Shown piece after piece: positions 4,610 to 19,514 of a stretch of DNA of 25,324 nucleotides; positions within the stretch are counted from its first letter, which is position 1, and each line of letters opens with the position of its first letter. The stretch is from a virus. The stretch spans positions 1-25,324 of IMG/VR virus record IMGVR_UViG_3300030109_004463; one strand, given 5' to 3'. The notes beneath the pieces are model-generated. The model made no database searches. It saw only the letters and a list, made by a program, of their open reading frames with translations, and had not been told where the DNA came from. The position numbers and the translations under genes were made by a program.

Positions 4610-4878
4610 TAGAATGTTCCTTTAAAGTTTTTCATGGCTTTAACAGTGCCACCACCAGATAAAAGTTGCATTTTTCCAGAAGAATCCCGGTCTAACGATT
4701 GTCTTCGTCGAATCATTCGCATTACTTCCATCATTTCTTTTTCAGTTTCAGAAAGTTCTGGCTCATAATATTTCATCCTAGAAGAAACACCTGAAGAATT
4801 TGGTTTAACAGTTTTCATTCTGGAAGTATCAATGTTATTAGATTTTTCTAGCAGTTGAAGTAGTTCTTGCAAATCCAT
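4609..4878 (-). CDS. Small protein between TerL and portal
   Basis: I place the start at the ATG at 4876-4878 (MDLQELLQLLEKSN), giving 89 residues. It overlaps the TerL stop as TGATG and has AAGGAGT about eight bases upstream. An upstream in-frame ATG would add ten residues but lies inside TerL without a good ribosome site. The protein is charged, with an N-terminal leucine-rich helix and a second predicted helix LSETEKEMMEVMRMIRRRQS. Its position between TerL and portal suggests a packaging or head-assembly accessory protein, but no family is recognised. Confidence 0.75.
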   Translation of the reverse strand: MDLQELLQLLEKSNNIDTSRMKTVKPNSSGVSSRMKYYEPELSETEKEMMEVMRMIRRRQSLDRDSSGKMQLLSGGGTVKAMKNFKGTF

Positions 4879-6341
4879 CAATAATACTCCTTCTCTTTTG
4901 GATACCAACTCTCGGTCATGTCGTCTTCTCCTTCTAGCGTAATAAAGCCGCCTTGTCGAAACCTTATCAGAGCCATAGTCATGCTGTCTACAAAATCATC
5001 GTGGTCTCCGTTAGGAAACGCAGCGCATTCCTCCACAACTTCCTCGGCGAAACTCTTCTCAGGAGCCCACACCATGCCAGCTTCAAACAGAGGTGCAACC
5101 GTGTGCATTCGCGTCACCTTATCACGACCTTTGCCCGGTGTATAGTTCATAACTGGAATTCCTGCTCTTCGCATTTCATCCGTTAAAGGCATTCCACTGG
5201 CTTTCGCTTCCACAATCACCATGTCAGGCTCCCAATACTCATACTCTTCTCCTGCCGCTTCTTTAAGCTCTGGGAAGTTCCAACGCCCACGCCGAGCGTC
5301 CATAAGTATTATATTATCAGGACCACCGTCCTCTGGATTAAACACACCCCACGTTGTTATCGCACTGTAGTCAGCCGATTCCTTCTTACTAAACGCCGTG
5401 TCGTAACTCTGTATAATGTACTTCACAGGAGGTATTTTCTCCTTTTCCCACAGATTCCACCACTCTTTTTTAACGATTGCACCCTCCGCAGCGGTCGGTT
5501 GTTGTTGCCATTGGGCGTTCCATTTGCCCACAGGAAGGGACGCTTTGACCGCTAAAAGGTCATCTTTACCCCAGAATTCAGGCCATAATGGGTCATTTGA
5601 CGGCATAATCGCCGGAAACTCTACAACTTCCCATGTATCAGATAAAACGTCCGATCCTTGGGATTTTATCAATCGACCCGTTAAATCCTTCATGCCCCAA
5701 CGGGTCATAACAACAATAATCGCTCCTCCAGGCTGTAAACGCTGTCGAGGACCAGATGTATACCACTCAAATGCGTTATCAAACGCAGATTCGCTCAACG
5801 CATCTTGCTCCGAGTGCGGATCATCAATAATAAACAAGTCTGCACCACGACCCGTGACCGCCGCACCCACACCAGCAGCGAAATACTCGCCCCCAGCTTC
5901 GGTTTCCCACCGTCCTGCCGCTTTACTATCCGCTTTTAACTCTGCTTTTGGAAAAACGTCCTTATATGCAGGGTCTTCAAGCAAATCTCGCACCTTACGA
6001 CCAAATCGAACAGCCAATTCCGTGTTATGAGTGGCCTGAATAATCTTTAATTTCGGATTTCGACCCAAAAACCACGCTGGCATAAGGTAAGATGCAAACT
6101 CAGACTTGGAATGACGGGGCGGCATGTTCACAATCAGCCGTTTTAGCTTCCCTTGAGCAATTAATTCAAGCTTTTCAGCTATGACACGGTGATGACGACC
6201 CTCAATAAAGCCTTCATACACATGATGAACAAACGGCATGAACTTATCTCGTGCTTCTTCACGCACGGAAAGTCGAACTTGTGCCTGTTTTAAAGACAAT
6301 ATCTCCCGTAGGGCTTCTTCAGGTACACTATCTAGGTTCAT
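4878..6341 (-). CDS. terL: Terminase large subunit (TerL)
   Basis: This 487-residue packaging motor has both domains. The ATPase has the Walker A variant MPPRHSKSE (residues 73-81), Walker B LFIIDDPH (169-176) and the coupling segment MTRWG (212-216). The RNase H-like nuclease has metal ligands at Asp314 (SYDTAF), Glu378 (VIVEAK) and the HDDFVD cluster (447-452). PPRHSKS in place of GKT is normal for this Terminase_6 group. It translocates DNA into the prohead and cuts the concatemer. The end overlaps the next gene and the start overlaps the 690-residue gene by four bases. The likely small subunit is unusually far away, at 12144-12701. Confidence 0.96.
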   Translation of the reverse strand: MNLDSVPEEALREILSLKQAQVRLSVREEARDKFMPFVHHVYEGFIEGRHHRVIAEKLELIAQGKLKRLIVNMPPRHSKSEFASYLMPAWFLGRNPKLKIIQATHNTELAVRFGRKVRDLLEDPAYKDVFPKAELKADSKAAGRWETEAGGEYFAAGVGAAVTGRGADLFIIDDPHSEQDALSESAFDNAFEWYTSGPRQRLQPGGAIIVVMTRWGMKDLTGRLIKSQGSDVLSDTWEVVEFPAIMPSNDPLWPEFWGKDDLLAVKASLPVGKWNAQWQQQPTAAEGAIVKKEWWNLWEKEKIPPVKYIIQSYDTAFSKKESADYSAITTWGVFNPEDGGPDNIILMDARRGRWNFPELKEAAGEEYEYWEPDMVIVEAKASGMPLTDEMRRAGIPVMNYTPGKGRDKVTRMHTVAPLFEAGMVWAPEKSFAEEVVEECAAFPNGDHDDFVDSMTMALIRFRQGGFITLEGEDDMTESWYPKEKEYY

Positions 6342-15785: not shown

Positions 15786-15994
15786 TGCAACGTAGAAGAA
15801 AATCAACGATTACTAGGGATCAGTTGCTTCGAGCCTTGTATGATTATTTCAAGGATGAAGAGTCAACCTTTGATGAAATCTATATTGATGGAAGCGAGGA
15901 GCAAGGTACGTTGTATGTTTGTTACGAGCGACTAAGAGAAAATAGAATGGATATTTGTTTAATAAAGGAAGGAAAAGAAATTGACGAAACTTAG
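15785..15994 (+). CDS. Small hypothetical protein
   Basis: The 69-residue product starts with a basic MQRRRKSTITRDQLLRALYD and continues acidic. The layout (basic arm, helix, then strands such as EIYIDGSEEQGTLYVCYERL) could suit a small DNA-binding protein, but no family is recognised. Ribosome site GAGAGGAG lies upstream. Its last 14 bases overlap the start of the methyltransferase, which suggests coupled translation with it. Confidence 0.65.
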   Translation: MQRRRKSTITRDQLLRALYDYFKDEESTFDEIYIDGSEEQGTLYVCYERLRENRMDICLIKEGKEIDET

Positions 15995-17057
15995 GCACGT
16001 TGATTTGTGTTCGGGAATCGGGGGTTTTGCCCTCGGTTTCCAATGGGCAGAGTTGTCCAAAACAATAATGTTTTGCGACACCGAGAAGTGGTGTCGTGAA
16101 ATCCTAGCGAAGAATTTTCCCGAAACCCGAATAGAAAAAGATGTAAAGGAGTTAGCAAATGACCCAGAGAGACTTGTTCCCGACCACGATATCCTCACCG
16201 CCGGATATCCCTGTCAGCCGTTCTCGGTTGCCGGACTTAGAAAAGGAGAAAAAGATGACCGTCACATCTGGCCGTACATCTTTAGAATTATTACATGCAA
16301 AAGACCCACTTGGTGCGTTTTCGAAAACGTTTATGGTCACATTGCCTTGGGTCTCGACAAAGTGCTCGCTGACTTGGAAAGTGAAGGCTACTCCACAAGG
16401 ACGTTTGTTGTTCCAGCTTGTGCCAAAGACGCATTCCATCGCAGAGACCGACTCTGGATTATTGCACACTCCGACAGCAAAAGCGAACCAGATGTCTCCG
16501 AGCATGAAGGAAAGAGACAAGGGAAGTTGGGGGAAAGAACCACCATTGTGGAAAACACCATTGGTGGACGATGCGAAGAACGTGACACCGAATCCGAAGA
16601 GGTTTCAAGGTCTTTACGCACAAGTTCAAATGTGGCCGACTCCGACAACGAAGGGTTACGGTCACGGAAGCGAGGGTCAGTACCAAAATCTTTACAAAAA
16701 AATGATTCAAGGAGTTATCACGCAGACAGATTTGGAAGTTATGACGGCAACAAAGATGGAAAACCACAGGTCTTACAAAAAAATGCAGAAGATGTGGCCG
16801 ACTCCGACGACGAGGGATCACAAGGGGGGATACATCGGGGGGAGAATTCGGAACGGCAAAGTTTCGATGGACACTCTGGACGTAGCCGTTCAACACACCG
16901 ACAATCAAAGCAAGAGTTCTGGACAGTTGAACCCAACGTGGGTCGAGTGGCTCATGGGATACCCAGAAGGGTGGACAGACTTAAAGGATTAGGAAATGCA
17001 ATCGTGCCACAAATTTCCATGCAGATTGGTCTGGCGATAAAGGAGCATTTGAACTGA
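15981..17057 (+). CDS. DNA (cytosine-5) methyltransferase
   Basis: The 358-residue enzyme starts at TTG 15981, eight bases after GGAAGGA; no earlier start fits and the first Met is past motif I. It transfers methyl from S-adenosylmethionine to C5 of cytosine. Motif I is DLCSGIGG (8-15), motif IV PCQPFS (77-82, catalytic Cys78), motif VI ENV (115-117), motif VIII HRRDR (153-157), and motif X GLGNAIVPQ near 338. Between VIII and X lies about 150 residues of very hydrophilic sequence with duplicated VADSDxEG and LQKN pieces, poorly suited to a normal target-recognition domain. The DNA here also encodes another protein in a second frame. Likely role: self-modification against host restriction. 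Confidence 0.94.
   Translation: MTKLRHVDLCSGIGGFALGFQWAELSKTIMFCDTEKWCREILAKNFPETRIEKDVKELANDPERLVPDHDILTAGYPCQPFSVAGLRKGEKDDRHIWPYIFRIITCKRPTWCVFENVYGHIALGLDKVLADLESEGYSTRTFVVPACAKDAFHRRDRLWIIAHSDSKSEPDVSEHEGKRQGKLGERTTIVENTIGGRCEERDTESEEVSRSLRTSSNVADSDNEGLRSRKRGSVPKSLQKNDSRSYHADRFGSYDGNKDGKPQVLQKNAEDVADSDDEGSQGGIHRGENSERQSFDGHSGRSRSTHRQSKQEFWTVEPNVGRVAHGIPRRVDRLKGLGNAIVPQISMQIGLAIKEHLN
16145..16151 (+). promoter_or_regulatory. Internal ribosome binding site for the overlapping gene
   Basis: AAAGGAG lies seven bases before the ATG at 16159, inside the methyltransferase gene. It is a near-ideal Shine-Dalgarno site with no evident use other than to start the frame at 16159. Confidence 0.7.
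16159..16992 (+). CDS. Overlapping +1-frame gene inside the methyltransferase (WPTPT/WVEWLMG protein)
   Basis: This 277-residue frame lies wholly inside the methyltransferase gene, shifted by one base. It has its own ATG and AAAGGAG site, directly after an in-frame stop. It contains LTWKVKATPQGRLLFQLVP (71-89), a row of HTPTA, WKTPL and two MWPTPTT units (103-218), and LNPTWVEWLMGYPEGWTDL (257-275). From memory, TWKxKxTPxxRLLFQL, repeated MWPTPT and LNPxWVEWLMGxPxGWTDL characterise proteins in phages and metagenomes that are often labelled methyltransferase-related. An open frame of 834 bases with three family motifs is unlikely by chance. Function unknown; it might assist or recognise the target for the enzyme it overlaps. 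Confidence 0.72.
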   Translation: MTQRDLFPTTISSPPDIPVSRSRLPDLEKEKKMTVTSGRTSLELLHAKDPLGAFSKTFMVTLPWVSTKCSLTWKVKATPQGRLLFQLVPKTHSIAETDSGLLHTPTAKANQMSPSMKERDKGSWGKEPPLWKTPLVDDAKNVTPNPKRFQGLYAQVQMWPTPTTKGYGHGSEGQYQNLYKKMIQGVITQTDLEVMTATKMENHRSYKKMQKMWPTPTTRDHKGGYIGGRIRNGKVSMDTLDVAVQHTDNQSKSSGQLNPTWVEWLMGYPEGWTDLKD

Positions 17058-17239
17058 TGTGGAAAGCAATGGCACTAATGTGCGTTCTGGAGGGGGGTGA
17101 GCAATCTTGTCCCACCGTTTACTTTGAAGAGACTTTCGATAGTAAACAAGAATGTGAGGTCTGGCTTGTAAGGACTCGGTTCTATACATTGCCGAGTAAC
17201 AAGAAAATAGTATTGGACGATTGTTACTTGAAACGTTAA
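17057..17239 (+). CDS. Small cysteine-containing hypothetical protein
   Basis: The 60-residue protein (start MWKAMALMCVLEGGEQSC) overlaps the methyltransferase stop as TGATG. The short hydrophobic start is too weak to call a signal peptide, but the four cysteines (9, 18, 33, 56) and the pattern FxSxxECEVW resemble small exported proteins found in phages. Ribosome site AAAGGAG lies about 11 bases upstream. It may be periplasmic; this is inference. Confidence 0.6.
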   Translation: MWKAMALMCVLEGGEQSCPTVYFEETFDSKQECEVWLVRTRFYTLPSNKKIVLDDCYLKR

Positions 17240-17274
17240 GGTGTCTTATTGTTAATTCATACAAGGAGACGATA

Positions 17275-17451
17275 ATGATTACCAAACAACCCAAGCAAGA
17301 GTTTCGAAATGTGGCACTCTTGCTTGATACGCATGGTCGTATAAAAGAAATTGCCGACGCTGAACAACGAACGATAGCTCGGCAACTAAAGATTATAATT
17401 GAAAGAGAACACGCTAAGTATTTTGGACCAGGGGAGGACGATTATGTTTAA
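17275..17451 (+). CDS. Probable ribbon-helix-helix (Arc/CopG-type) regulator
   Basis: I start at the ATG at 17275 (MITKQPKQEFRNVALLLD), directly after AAGGAGACGATA, giving 58 residues. A strand NVALLLD is followed by helix THGRIKEIADAEQRT and helix IARQLKIIIEREHAKYF. This is the layout of ribbon-helix-helix repressors, where the strand enters the DNA major groove of a dimer. It may regulate this operon or be an antitoxin-like protein, but no toxin partner is visible. It overlaps the transporter gene by eight bases. Confidence 0.65.
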   Translation: MITKQPKQEFRNVALLLDTHGRIKEIADAEQRTIARQLKIIIEREHAKYFGPGEDDYV

Positions 17452-17914
17452 TTATAAATTTTCTATAGGATATATTTTATCTATTGTTTTAGTAAATATT
17501 GGCTTTGTTTATGTGGCTCCGATTCCACTTTTGGGAGAGATGTTTCCACCCATGTCTTTTGTAGTTGGAGCCGTCTTTATACTTAGGGATTATGCCCAAA
17601 GAGAAATAGGACACAAGGTTCTAGGTGCAATGTTAGTTGGAGCTGGACTAAGTTATTTAATGGCTGATCCTTTTGTGGCGATAGCATCTTTAGTTGCTTT
17701 TGTTATTTCTGAAACGGCTGATTGGGGTGTTTACTCTGTAACGAAAAAACCGTTAGGTCAGAGAATTTTAATTTCTTCGGCAATAGCAACCCCGATTGAT
17801 AGTGCAGTATTTTTATACATGATTGGATACTTTAGTGTTCTTGGTTGTATTCTTATGGTTCTTGCAAAGATGGTTGCCGCCGGATTAATTTGGTGGAGAT
17901 TAAAGGGTGAATAA
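17444..17914 (+). CDS. VUT/YhhQ-type queuosine-precursor transporter
   Basis: Starting at the ATG at 17444 (after GGGGAGG), this 156-residue membrane protein has about five to six hydrophobic helices. Key stretches are FVVGAVFILRDYAQREIGHK (about 39-58), VAFVISETADWGVY (about 85-98) and SSAIATPIDSAVF (about 111-123). The order FxLRDxxxRxxG...SExxDxxVY...GxxxDSxxF is that of PF02592 (VUT family, E. coli YhhQ), which imports preQ0/preQ1. It is shorter than YhhQ (221 residues). With the next two genes it suggests uptake of a 7-deazaguanine base. The link to DNA modification is inference. Confidence 0.82.
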   Translation: MFNYKFSIGYILSIVLVNIGFVYVAPIPLLGEMFPPMSFVVGAVFILRDYAQREIGHKVLGAMLVGAGLSYLMADPFVAIASLVAFVISETADWGVYSVTKKPLGQRILISSAIATPIDSAVFLYMIGYFSVLGCILMVLAKMVAAGLIWWRLKGE

Positions 17915-18185
17915 ATACACTTTTAATTTCACATGTATTTGTCCTAGCGATAAGGAAACTATTTCGTATAAAGCAATCATTGAAACAAAAGAAATGATTA
18001 TGGTTGAGAATATTAACGATTATATTTACCAAATATCTGGAAAAGAATGGTTTCAAGAAAAACTTACAGAAAAAATAGCAAACGCATTTTCTATTACAGG
18101 AGAAGGACATGGAGTTAAGGTAACAACTTTTGGCACACACCAAGGAGTTGAGATTGAGTGTGAGTTAGGGAGTTCTACACTTTGA
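17907..18185 (+). CDS. QueF/FolE-like T-fold protein
   Basis: The 92-residue protein starts at GTG 17907, six bases after GGAGAT. FTCICPSDKETISYKAII (residues 8-25) aligns with the QueF segment FTxLCPxTGQPDFATI, placing Cys12 at the position of the QueF nucleophile. MVENINDYI lies near the QueF VESKSL site, and FQEKLTEKIANAF plus GVKVTTFGTHQGVEIE matches the second half of the T-fold (also seen in FolE). The QPD part is missing and the protein is shorter than QueF. It may act on preQ0, by reduction or another change, or be a diverged GTP cyclohydrolase relative. Its neighbours favour the deazaguanine role. Confidence 0.55.
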   Translation: MNKYTFNFTCICPSDKETISYKAIIETKEMIMVENINDYIYQISGKEWFQEKLTEKIANAFSITGEGHGVKVTTFGTHQGVEIECELGSSTL

Positions 18186-18865
18186 TTCATTATCATGGAA
18201 CACCTATGACTCCACGTTCCAAACTTTTACCAATGGCAGGGAAGCACTTTTGTGTTTCCTTTGCCGACAAAAGAGACGGGGATTGGTGTTTATTAAACGC
18301 ACAATCTGTTATGTGGGACAATGGAGCTTTCACTGCGTATACGAAAGGTAAAGCTCCCGATTGGAACGGTTATTATAAATGGCTGGAGGATCGATTGTCT
18401 CACCCACATTGGGCAGTTGTTCCCGATGTCATTGATGGAACTCCCGAAAATAATTTAGAATTAATAAACCAGTGGCCCCATCGTAAGGATTGCAGTGCCG
18501 TGGTATGGCATATGGACGAGCCGATAGATCATCTTTTGCATTTATTGACTCTTGGTTTTGGTAAACTTTGTTTTGGTTCATCTGGTAAATATTGGCAAGT
18601 AGGATCGGAGTCTTGGGAACGACGAGCAGATGAAGCGTTTAACGCTATATCAAAAGAAGGTGTTATTCCCTGGATACACATGCTTCGAGGATTATCAATG
18701 TCTGGAGACAAATATCCTTTTGCTTCGGCCGACAGTGCAAATGTTGCTCGGCATCATAATGAGTTAAACATTTGTCCTGAACGAATGGCTCGACGTATTG
18801 ATGCTGTTCAATGTCCTTCGTTTTGGAATTTAAGACCTACTCAGGAGGATTTTTTTGAAACGTAA
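18182..18865 (+). CDS. DpdA-like / tRNA-guanine transglycosylase-like protein
   Basis: The 227-residue protein starts at TTG 18182, overlapping the previous stop (TTGA), with GGGAG upstream; this start keeps the conserved HGTP. Motifs in order: WDNGAFTAY (45-53, like the DSGGFQ Asp loop of TGT), WAVVPDVIDG (77-86), VVWHMDEP (107-114), CFGSSG (130-135), IHMLRGL (165-171) and YPFASADSAN (178-187). This order fits the TIM-barrel TGT/DpdA group, in which DpdA exchanges guanine in DNA for preQ0 or a derivative. I recall closely similar phage proteins. It lacks a visible tRNA-binding domain. A DNA target is inferred from phage context and from the transporter and T-fold genes beside it. Confidence 0.72.
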   Translation: MIHYHGTPMTPRSKLLPMAGKHFCVSFADKRDGDWCLLNAQSVMWDNGAFTAYTKGKAPDWNGYYKWLEDRLSHPHWAVVPDVIDGTPENNLELINQWPHRKDCSAVVWHMDEPIDHLLHLLTLGFGKLCFGSSGKYWQVGSESWERRADEAFNAISKEGVIPWIHMLRGLSMSGDKYPFASADSANVARHHNELNICPERMARRIDAVQCPSFWNLRPTQEDFFET

Positions 18866-19019
18866 AGAAGACAAGAACCAATGTCCGAGGTGCATGAGTC
18901 TCACATCGTTTATTCTGGTCCATGGTCACTACCAATGTTTGATTTGTAAATCAGTGGTTGATGATTGTTGCCAAGGTGAAACGTGTGAGACTAGTATTCA
19001 AACCCCGAAAGATAAGTAA
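18855..19019 (+). CDS. 54-residue zinc-ribbon protein (TTG start)
   Basis: This gene starts at TTG 18855, six bases after AGGAGG, inside the end of the DpdA-like gene, and stops directly against the stop of the lysin gene on the other strand. The protein has NQCPRC (Cys10, Cys13), HGHYQCLIC (Cys28, Cys31) and CCQGETC (38, 39, 44). The first four cysteines form a zinc ribbon. It contains LVHGHYQCLICKS, which I remember from short marine phage proteins. Close coupling to the DpdA-like gene suggests a partner, perhaps replacing the missing nucleic-acid-binding domain; this is inference. Confidence 0.7.
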   Translation: MKRKEDKNQCPRCMSLTSFILVHGHYQCLICKSVVDDCCQGETCETSIQTPKDK

Positions 19020-19514
19020 TTATAACCCTTCTTCGTATTTGATACATGTATTGAGCGTATAAACGTGATACGGCAAGGTTTCGCAAATTGTTTCTGTTGG
19101 TCGAGGCATAGGAGACAGGTTTTTTTTTGCGTAAAAAATATGATTCCCGACTTGCTTTGTATAACCTAAGTTATCGATCCAGTATGGAGTAACATATTGT
19201 GCATGATAGTGTGTTACATTATCCCCGACCACAGATATATATTGTCCATCTTCGATCATCATTTTAGCGAGTGCCTTTGATCTTTGAAACGCTTGAGGTT
19301 CTGTTGGCGTATCGGACTTTCCATCGCACCACCAGCTGAACTGACAACCTTCGCTATTGTCTTGAAGCACAACCTCGCAGATTGTATCTGGATAATGCGG
19401 CGAGGCTACTCTATTAAGAGTAACCTCAGCAACGGCAAGTTGACCAGCGATGGGTTCTGATCGAGCTTCAAAGTACATGTTAAGTGCAAGGCAGAGTAAG
19501 GCCGTTTCAATCAT
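19020..19514 (-). CDS. SleB-type cell wall hydrolase (lysin)
   Basis: The 164-residue enzyme has LNMYFEARSEPIAGQLAVAE (11-30, catalytic Glu in YFEAR), VTLNRVASPHYPDTICEVV (31-49), CQFSWWCDG (57-65) and GNHIFYA (about 122-128). This is the Hydrolase_2 (PF07486) domain, a lytic transglycosylase-like peptidoglycan hydrolase. The domain fills the protein and no peptidoglycan-binding module is present. No classical signal peptide is seen, so release would need a holin. The start follows AGAGGAAAACCAAAA. It is in an operon with an SNF2 helicase, away from the structural genes. Confidence 0.92.
   Translation of the reverse strand: MIETALLCLALNMYFEARSEPIAGQLAVAEVTLNRVASPHYPDTICEVVLQDNSEGCQFSWWCDGKSDTPTEPQAFQRSKALAKMMIEDGQYISVVGDNVTHYHAQYVTPYWIDNLGYTKQVGNHIFYAKKNLSPMPRPTETICETLPYHVYTLNTCIKYEEGL

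Follow-up and report, generated by a model that had tools for sequence, protein, structure and literature searches.

Phages that carry the base exchanger DpdA without base-synthesis genes made up the largest phage group in a 2019 survey, which in the portion at hand describes their modification status as hard to predict, suggests host preQ0 or uptake as the source of the base, and records the transporter YhhQ in some of them (PMC6884629). Phages 7-11 and MED16 carry dADG of unexplained origin; in the Pantoea phage MED16 it amounts to ~0.13% of G, and dpdA alone was found in the genome, according to the accessible part of that study (PMC8306585). Here we describe a locus in a 25,324-base stretch of an IMG/VR virus record (the window, meaning the whole stretch analysed), in which a VUT transporter gene, a small T-fold protein gene and a DpdA-like gene are coupled. 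The locus is genuine and recurs, and we read it as a salvage form of 7-deazaguanine modification in phages, presumably of DNA, with an uncharacterised QueF-Like-related partner. The window is probably a fragment and also contains phage portal, terminase, primase and helicase genes. Four open reading frames (ORFs) overlap head to tail across 17444-19019:

17444..17914, + strand: VUT/COG1738 (YhhQ-type) queuosine-precursor transporter, 156 residues; Vut_1, phrog_4899
17907..18185, + strand: mini T-fold protein, QueF-Like-related, 92 residues; GTG start, 8-base overlap with the VUT gene
18182..18865, + strand: DpdA/TGT-like base exchanger, 227 residues; TTG start, 4-base overlap with the T-fold gene
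18855..19019, + strand: zinc ribbon, 54 residues; TTG start, 11-base overlap with the DpdA-like gene

An earlier note on this DNA had described overlapping VUT, T-fold and DpdA-like genes here as a compact modification cassette. The ORFs at 17444-17914, 17907-18185 and 18182-18865 lie where it placed them, and the observation is confirmed in position and largely right in kind.

The cassette is not a chance arrangement, because it recurs across loci. Searching with DpdA yielded 16 viral loci plus isolated phages, including Rhizobium phages RHph_N3_2 and RHph_X2_30, Pseudanabaena phage Pam5, Microcystis phage Mae-JY30 and Caulobacter phage DMCA. RHph_X2_30 has VUT, T-fold and DpdA genes; RHph_N3_2 and Pam5 have DpdA and VUT but no T-fold gene. 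The T-fold protein gave no matches as a single-sequence query; a five-row T-fold profile returned 86 viral relatives, 80 of which were kept. DpdA lies directly 3' of the T-fold gene in all 80 of these loci (split or short in 7), and the same profile run on GTDB contigs found nine loci, all in Pseudomonas, with DpdA next in 9/9. From the other side, a DpdA profile scan produced at least 574 matches; 80 were kept, and removal of L007 and the repeats L110 and L111 left 77 loci, with a T-fold gene in 18 and the exact window order of VUT, T-fold, DpdA in 13. These results bear out the proposal that the three genes form one recurrent module. The transporter's place in it is common but optional: VUT is present in 63 of the 77, but T-fold plus DpdA stand without it in L024-L100 (77 loci from the T-fold scan) and in the nine Pseudomonas loci.

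Because every locus was reached through a DpdA or T-fold query and some are near copies of others, the following counts are descriptive and not rates: among 184 non-duplicate DpdA loci (window excluded; repeats L023, L110 and L111 dropped), the order was T-fold, DpdA in 90; DpdA, VUT in 41; VUT, DpdA in 21; VUT, T-fold, DpdA in 14; DpdA alone in 13; T-fold, DpdA, VUT in 3; and DpdA, T-fold and DpdA, VUT, T-fold in 1 each. Of the 184, 109 have a T-fold gene, which shares 4 bases with DpdA in 95 loci and 1 base in 8, is separated from it by a 1-base gap in 4, and lies downstream of it in 2. As a yardstick, 94 of 50,697 phage records contain a VUT match, and T-fold matches were obtained in 2 with the window protein as query and 4 with a Pseudomonas-type query (Epa33 twice, Mae-JY30 and RHph_X2_30). 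In 36 records searched for an unlinked T-fold gene, the sole matches were the three already known to be linked, one of them the window's. For a DpdA tree, sequences shorter than 190 residues or at least 85% identical to one already kept were dropped, reducing 178 to 71 rows; on this quick tree (22 open branches) VUT presence changes at least 11 times and T-fold presence at least 14 times, despite which the T-fold gene is nearly always in the same slot.

The T-fold protein matches phrog_37496, of unknown function (8.4e-10), as do 26 of 27 aligned family members; a Pfam/NCBIfam scan of 27 members found no family common to most, and the window protein gave sub-cut-off matches to FolE (5e-4) and QueF-II (0.003). 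Across 29 diverse members, whose identity to the window protein falls as low as 23%, Cys12, Pro13, Tyr21, Glu34, Glu51 and His78 are invariant, Asp15 is kept in 28, and residue 50 is His or Gln; sequences of 75 residues or fewer were left out of one T-fold sequence comparison. The candidate active-site set is Cys12, Asp15, Glu34, Gln50-Glu51 and His78.

Judged by profile match and predicted structure, the closest solved relative of this protein is archaeal QueF-Like (archaeosine synthase). The T-fold profile, run against 177,635 PDB sequences, ranked QueF-Like 5jyx first (3.3e-5), followed by an unrelated chain (0.14), and bacterial QueF was not among the PDB matches of the diverse-member profile. 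With the structure model (pLDDT 91), Foldseek placed 5jyx/5k0p (QueF-Like) first (2.1e-5), and VIA likewise put QueF-Like (Z 13.9, root-mean-square deviation 1.9, 91 aligned) ahead of GTP cyclohydrolase (11.8) and QueF (10.5). Cys12 aligns with the catalytic nucleophile Cys21 of QueF-Like. The reading as a QueF-like T-fold protein with Cys12 at the nucleophile place holds for fold and cysteine, but the protein is nearer to archaeal QueF-Like than to QueF. QueF is marked by the NADPH motif E(S/L)KSxK, and the T-fold proteins of phages Dp-1 (gp1) and HVTV-1 (gp82) carry ESKSLKLY or ELKSLKYY together with PRGGIS, Dp-1 also having an Asp at Cys+7. The window family has neither the NADPH motif nor PRGGIS nor the +7 Asp, Ile19 standing there instead, and its identification as a plain preQ1 synthase (QueF) was rejected on these absences.

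The 227-residue protein is DpdA/TGT-like, as had been proposed, by its match to phrog_887, 'queuine tRNA-ribosyltransferase' (1.7e-37), and its homology to MED16 DpdA. The exchanger-family profile aligns with MED16 gp38 at 8.1e-47 over 192 columns and, more distantly, with Dp-1 gp7 (1.3e-8, 95.6%). Asp46 and Asp184 are invariant in 27 aligned exchangers and stand opposite Asp in MED16 and Dp-1; we take them to be the DSGGF-type Asp and the nucleophile, and hence a candidate catalytic pair. DpdA profiles found no relative among PDB sequences. The structure model is a TIM barrel (pLDDT 88.5), for which VIA gave Cap10 14.7, arcTGT 14.3 and TGT 13.9. The protein spans the barrel only, with 227 residues against 360-380 in solved bacterial TGT chains. 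As separate observations, two distinct DpdA genes occur together at L154 (3995-4684 and 5425-6123), and the DpdA frame is split behind an intact T-fold gene in L022, L067, L070 and L073, where decay, phase change and sequencing error are not distinguished.

The VUT/YhhQ identity of the transporter stands, with a Vut_1 score above the Pfam cut-off (28.5 bits versus 27.2) and a match to phrog_4899 (1.7e-36). A simple Kyte-Doolittle scan shows about 4-5 hydrophobic segments (five peaks, two overlapping) in a family with about six membrane segments. VUT proteins act in tRNA queuosine salvage, according to the part of the source at hand (PMC5372724).

No QueC and no PTPS/QueD gene was found in the window record, in a search that did not cover QueE, and the sole FolE match there was the T-fold gene itself, below cut-off. 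Since the window is probably a fragment, the lack of synthesis genes was judged on relatives too. None of 71 distinct records (40 + 30 + one), six of which are titled complete (RHph_N3_2, Pam5, Mae-JY30, RHph_X2_30, DMCA and Epa33), had QueC above cut-off, and none of 22 had FolE above it. Three of 70 distinct records gave a PTPS match: a first with the match at the end of its contig, DMCA with a score below cut-off, and L150. QueC does exceed the cut-off in eight of the nine Pseudomonas genomes with T-fold plus DpdA and no VUT, so host supply is also possible; host supply in these VUT-less loci and import elsewhere would fit the pattern. The earlier observation that synthesis genes are absent therefore stands for QueC, QueD and FolE in the window and for QueC in relatives, but does not extend to sole reliance on import.

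The position between VUT and DpdA can be filled by other proteins. At L155:3456-4004 and L167:3450-3998 a tightly spaced gene for a 182-residue QueC-like protein occupies it, the two products scoring 1.9e-39 and 5e-40, just under the equivalog cut-off. The L155 record yielded no PTPS gene, and a QueC-like gene without PTPS would mean that 7-carboxy-7-deazaguanine, or some other intermediate, is what is salvaged. Caulobacter phage DMCA has a short QueD-like protein upstream of DpdA. These swaps are most simply read as a modular cassette whose tailoring enzyme varies. Other neighbours were also seen. Three isolated phages encode related proteins of 81-86 residues adjacent to VUT or DpdA (L003:4678-4938, L005:3512-3757 and L006:4723-4977), the two that were scanned being phrog_9572. 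PP-loop (SGGRTS) proteins were recognised by eye near DpdA at L004:3174-4004, L021:1902-2738 and L108:571-1428, the first with a 4-base overlap with DpdA.

The analysis establishes the genes with their relationships and coupling, how they recur, which residues are conserved, and a lack of QueC across the examined records; on this basis we infer transport, substrate, DNA as target, step order and product as follows. The window likely holds a salvage-type 7-deazaguanine DNA-modification cassette in which the T-fold protein tailors the side chain. VUT would bring the infected cell a 7-deazaguanine base from outside, preQ0 being the likeliest, and the DpdA-like TIM-barrel enzyme would swap guanine in phage DNA for it. 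The T-fold protein would then tailor its side chain by way of a covalent thioimide at Cys12, as QueF-Like does on tRNA preQ0, probably acting on the base already within DNA and likely converting the nitrile to an amidine (dG+) or an amide (dADG). Action on preQ0 in DNA is proposed because QueF-Like works on preQ0 in tRNA, via a thioimide with free ammonia in the portion of the source at hand (PMC5485725). A more far-reaching form, which we advance tentatively and would not call probable, is plug-in salvage: import, DpdA insertion and a swappable tailoring enzyme, with the T-fold protein as a new class (Cys12, Asp15, His78) that remodels the preQ0 nitrile in DNA. We know of no T-fold enzyme acting on DNA so far, and if plug-in salvage is true this would be the first.

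Several results weigh against side-chain tailoring in a salvage cassette. We found no modified base known from T-fold-bearing phages. Most loci with VUT and DpdA have no T-fold gene, and the T-fold protein is therefore dispensable for the core. A narrower T-fold profile run against the PDB gave unrelated matches only and no T-fold relative, and hhalign of the T-fold profile with single Dp-1 QueF, QueD and FolE sequences gave uninformative values (3.2, 0.3 and 2.1%). The general acid/base Asp28 of QueF-Like (5jyx) aligns with Ile19. The conserved Asp15 sits four residues before it, and Asp15 or His78 may stand in for Asp28; because an Asp28 equivalent is missing, we label the protein QueF-Like-related and not QueF-Like proper. 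On the exchanger model, PdxJ (13.8) is level with TGT by VIA, and Foldseek returned no match at E<=0.001, so that homology and not fold carries the DpdA assignment. The VUT protein falls under the TIGR00697 equivalog cut-off (28.5 versus 50.95 bits), as do 5/5 VUTs scanned from other DpdA loci. Most records are fragments, the L155 record contains a QueC-like gene (6.2e-27, below cut-off), and L150 has a PTPS/QueD gene about 17 bases past DpdA (~4696-5049, G059:50843-51196; 7.1e-32).

Other functions for the T-fold protein have to be set against tailoring in DNA. It could be a true QueF that reduces free preQ0 to preQ1 with NADPH, leaving DpdA to insert preQ1, as the nucleophile-position Cys of the T-fold and the sub-cut-off QueF-II match would allow; phage T-fold proteins called QueF-L by HHpred gave dPreQ1 in Dp-1 and HVTV-1 (PMC6884629, in the part available). 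The window family, however, lacks the motifs that those two proteins carry, the structural comparison favours QueF-Like and GTP cyclohydrolase over QueF, and the PDB profile matches include no bacterial QueF, all of which makes a true QueF unlikely. We regard it as quite unlikely that the protein is a non-catalytic DpdA partner which binds or hands over the base or stabilises the enzyme. Its near-constant translational coupling to DpdA, small size and want of a family match above cut-off would suit such a role, but the invariance of Cys12, Glu34, Glu51 and His78 in 29/29 members while most of the sequence diverges, and the occupation of the same slot by QueC-like enzymes, speak for catalysis.

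The target might also be other than phage DNA: the cassette could act on host tRNA and raise its queuosine-type modification in infected cells. DpdA is related to TGT, the PHROGs name is that of a tRNA-ribosyltransferase, and the known role of VUT proteins lies in tRNA queuosine salvage. Against this, a homologous DpdA is found in MED16, whose DNA holds dADG in the part of the report at hand (PMC8306585), and the window's exchanger is reduced to the barrel, well short of the bacterial TGT chains. We consider a tRNA target very unlikely, and side-chain tailoring of a salvaged base in phage DNA remains the preferred reading.

The genes around the cassette add little that is regular. Two further features lie upstream:

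17275..17451, + strand: small ORF; AAGGAGA ahead of ATG 17275, 8-base overlap with the VUT gene, start chosen from sequence
15981..17057, + strand: cytosine C5 DNA methyltransferase (PF00145 3.9e-37), context only

The small ORF, with a weak ribbon-helix-helix likeness (RHH_5, E 0.13 only), is possibly the first gene of the transcription unit. No Rfam match to a preQ1 riboswitch was found in the window at gathering thresholds or in 16900-19100 at E up to 1. Two small ORFs separate the methyltransferase gene from VUT. The methyltransferase is present upstream as claimed, but the suggested link to a second kind of modification finds no support as a rule: a C5-methyltransferase motif occurs in 20/184 DpdA loci, a count with no background control, and a regular partnership was set aside on this figure. 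In Pseudomonas phage Epa33 (L192:3001-6075), T-fold, DpdA and C5 cytosine methylase genes stand in a row. The zinc ribbon does follow DpdA with an 11-base overlap, as had been noted, but is not a conserved cassette part. It had no family match at a meaningful level in Pfam, PHROGs and NCBIfam-type scans; its own sequence was the sole match among L001-L022, and the absence of a counterpart in L002-L022 ruled it out as a conserved component. It is probably accessory or incidental. Cell-wall hydrolase genes lie near the DpdA region in the window (19020-19514, - strand; endolysin PHROG match) and at L019:5326-5823 (recognised by eye).

The cassette offers DpdA phages without synthesis genes a concrete supply route, import, and a named tailoring candidate. 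It would also broaden the chemistry of the T-fold superfamily and provide a set of three genes with which a modified base could be put into DNA. It suggests a way, open to testing, in which phages lacking base-making genes might still modify their DNA, and Epa33, RHph_X2_30 and Mae-JY30 are isolated carriers in which the product could be measured. Our literature search found no report of a T-fold partner or of VUT-DpdA linkage; subscription papers were mostly outside its scope, and a prior description is possible.

Among known systems, the DpdA-only phages including MED16 share with the window a DpdA without preQ0 synthesis genes, and the MED16 DpdA is homologous to the window's. In the 2019 survey YhhQ was uncorrelated with groups, as far as the accessible text goes (PMC6884629), whereas here VUT adjoins DpdA in 63/77 loci and a T-fold partner is present. 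Streptococcus phage Dp-1 likewise clusters genes for a T-fold protein, DpdA and a transporter that is annotated as QueT, and its DNA carries dPreQ1 (PMC6884629, same portion). Unlike the window, it also encodes GTP cyclohydrolase, QueC, QueD and QueE, its T-fold protein is a canonical QueF by motif, and QueT belongs to a transporter family other than VUT (PMC11130926, in the part at hand). The Seuratvirus-type phages CAjan, Seurat and EC151 combine VUT homologues (~46% identity for CAjan and Seurat) with DpdA, but EC151 also has folE, queD, queC and queE in the synteny typical of Seuratvirus, as the available section describes it (PMC8310023). Bacterial dpd islands pair DpdA with an occasional YhhQ (~9% of islands); they differ in being large, with dpdB/dpdC and a restriction operon, and the accessible portion of the source mentions no such T-fold partner (PMC11888242). 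Closest to the window's T-fold protein is archaeal QueF-Like (5jyx/5k0p), with which it shares the T-fold, the nucleophile Cys, the His/Gln-Glu pair and the lack of an NADPH motif, as far as the portion at hand goes (PMC5485725). In the window family Asp28 is not conserved and Asp15 and His78 are extra invariant residues; and whereas QueF-Like acts on tRNA, the window protein is phage-borne and coupled to DpdA.

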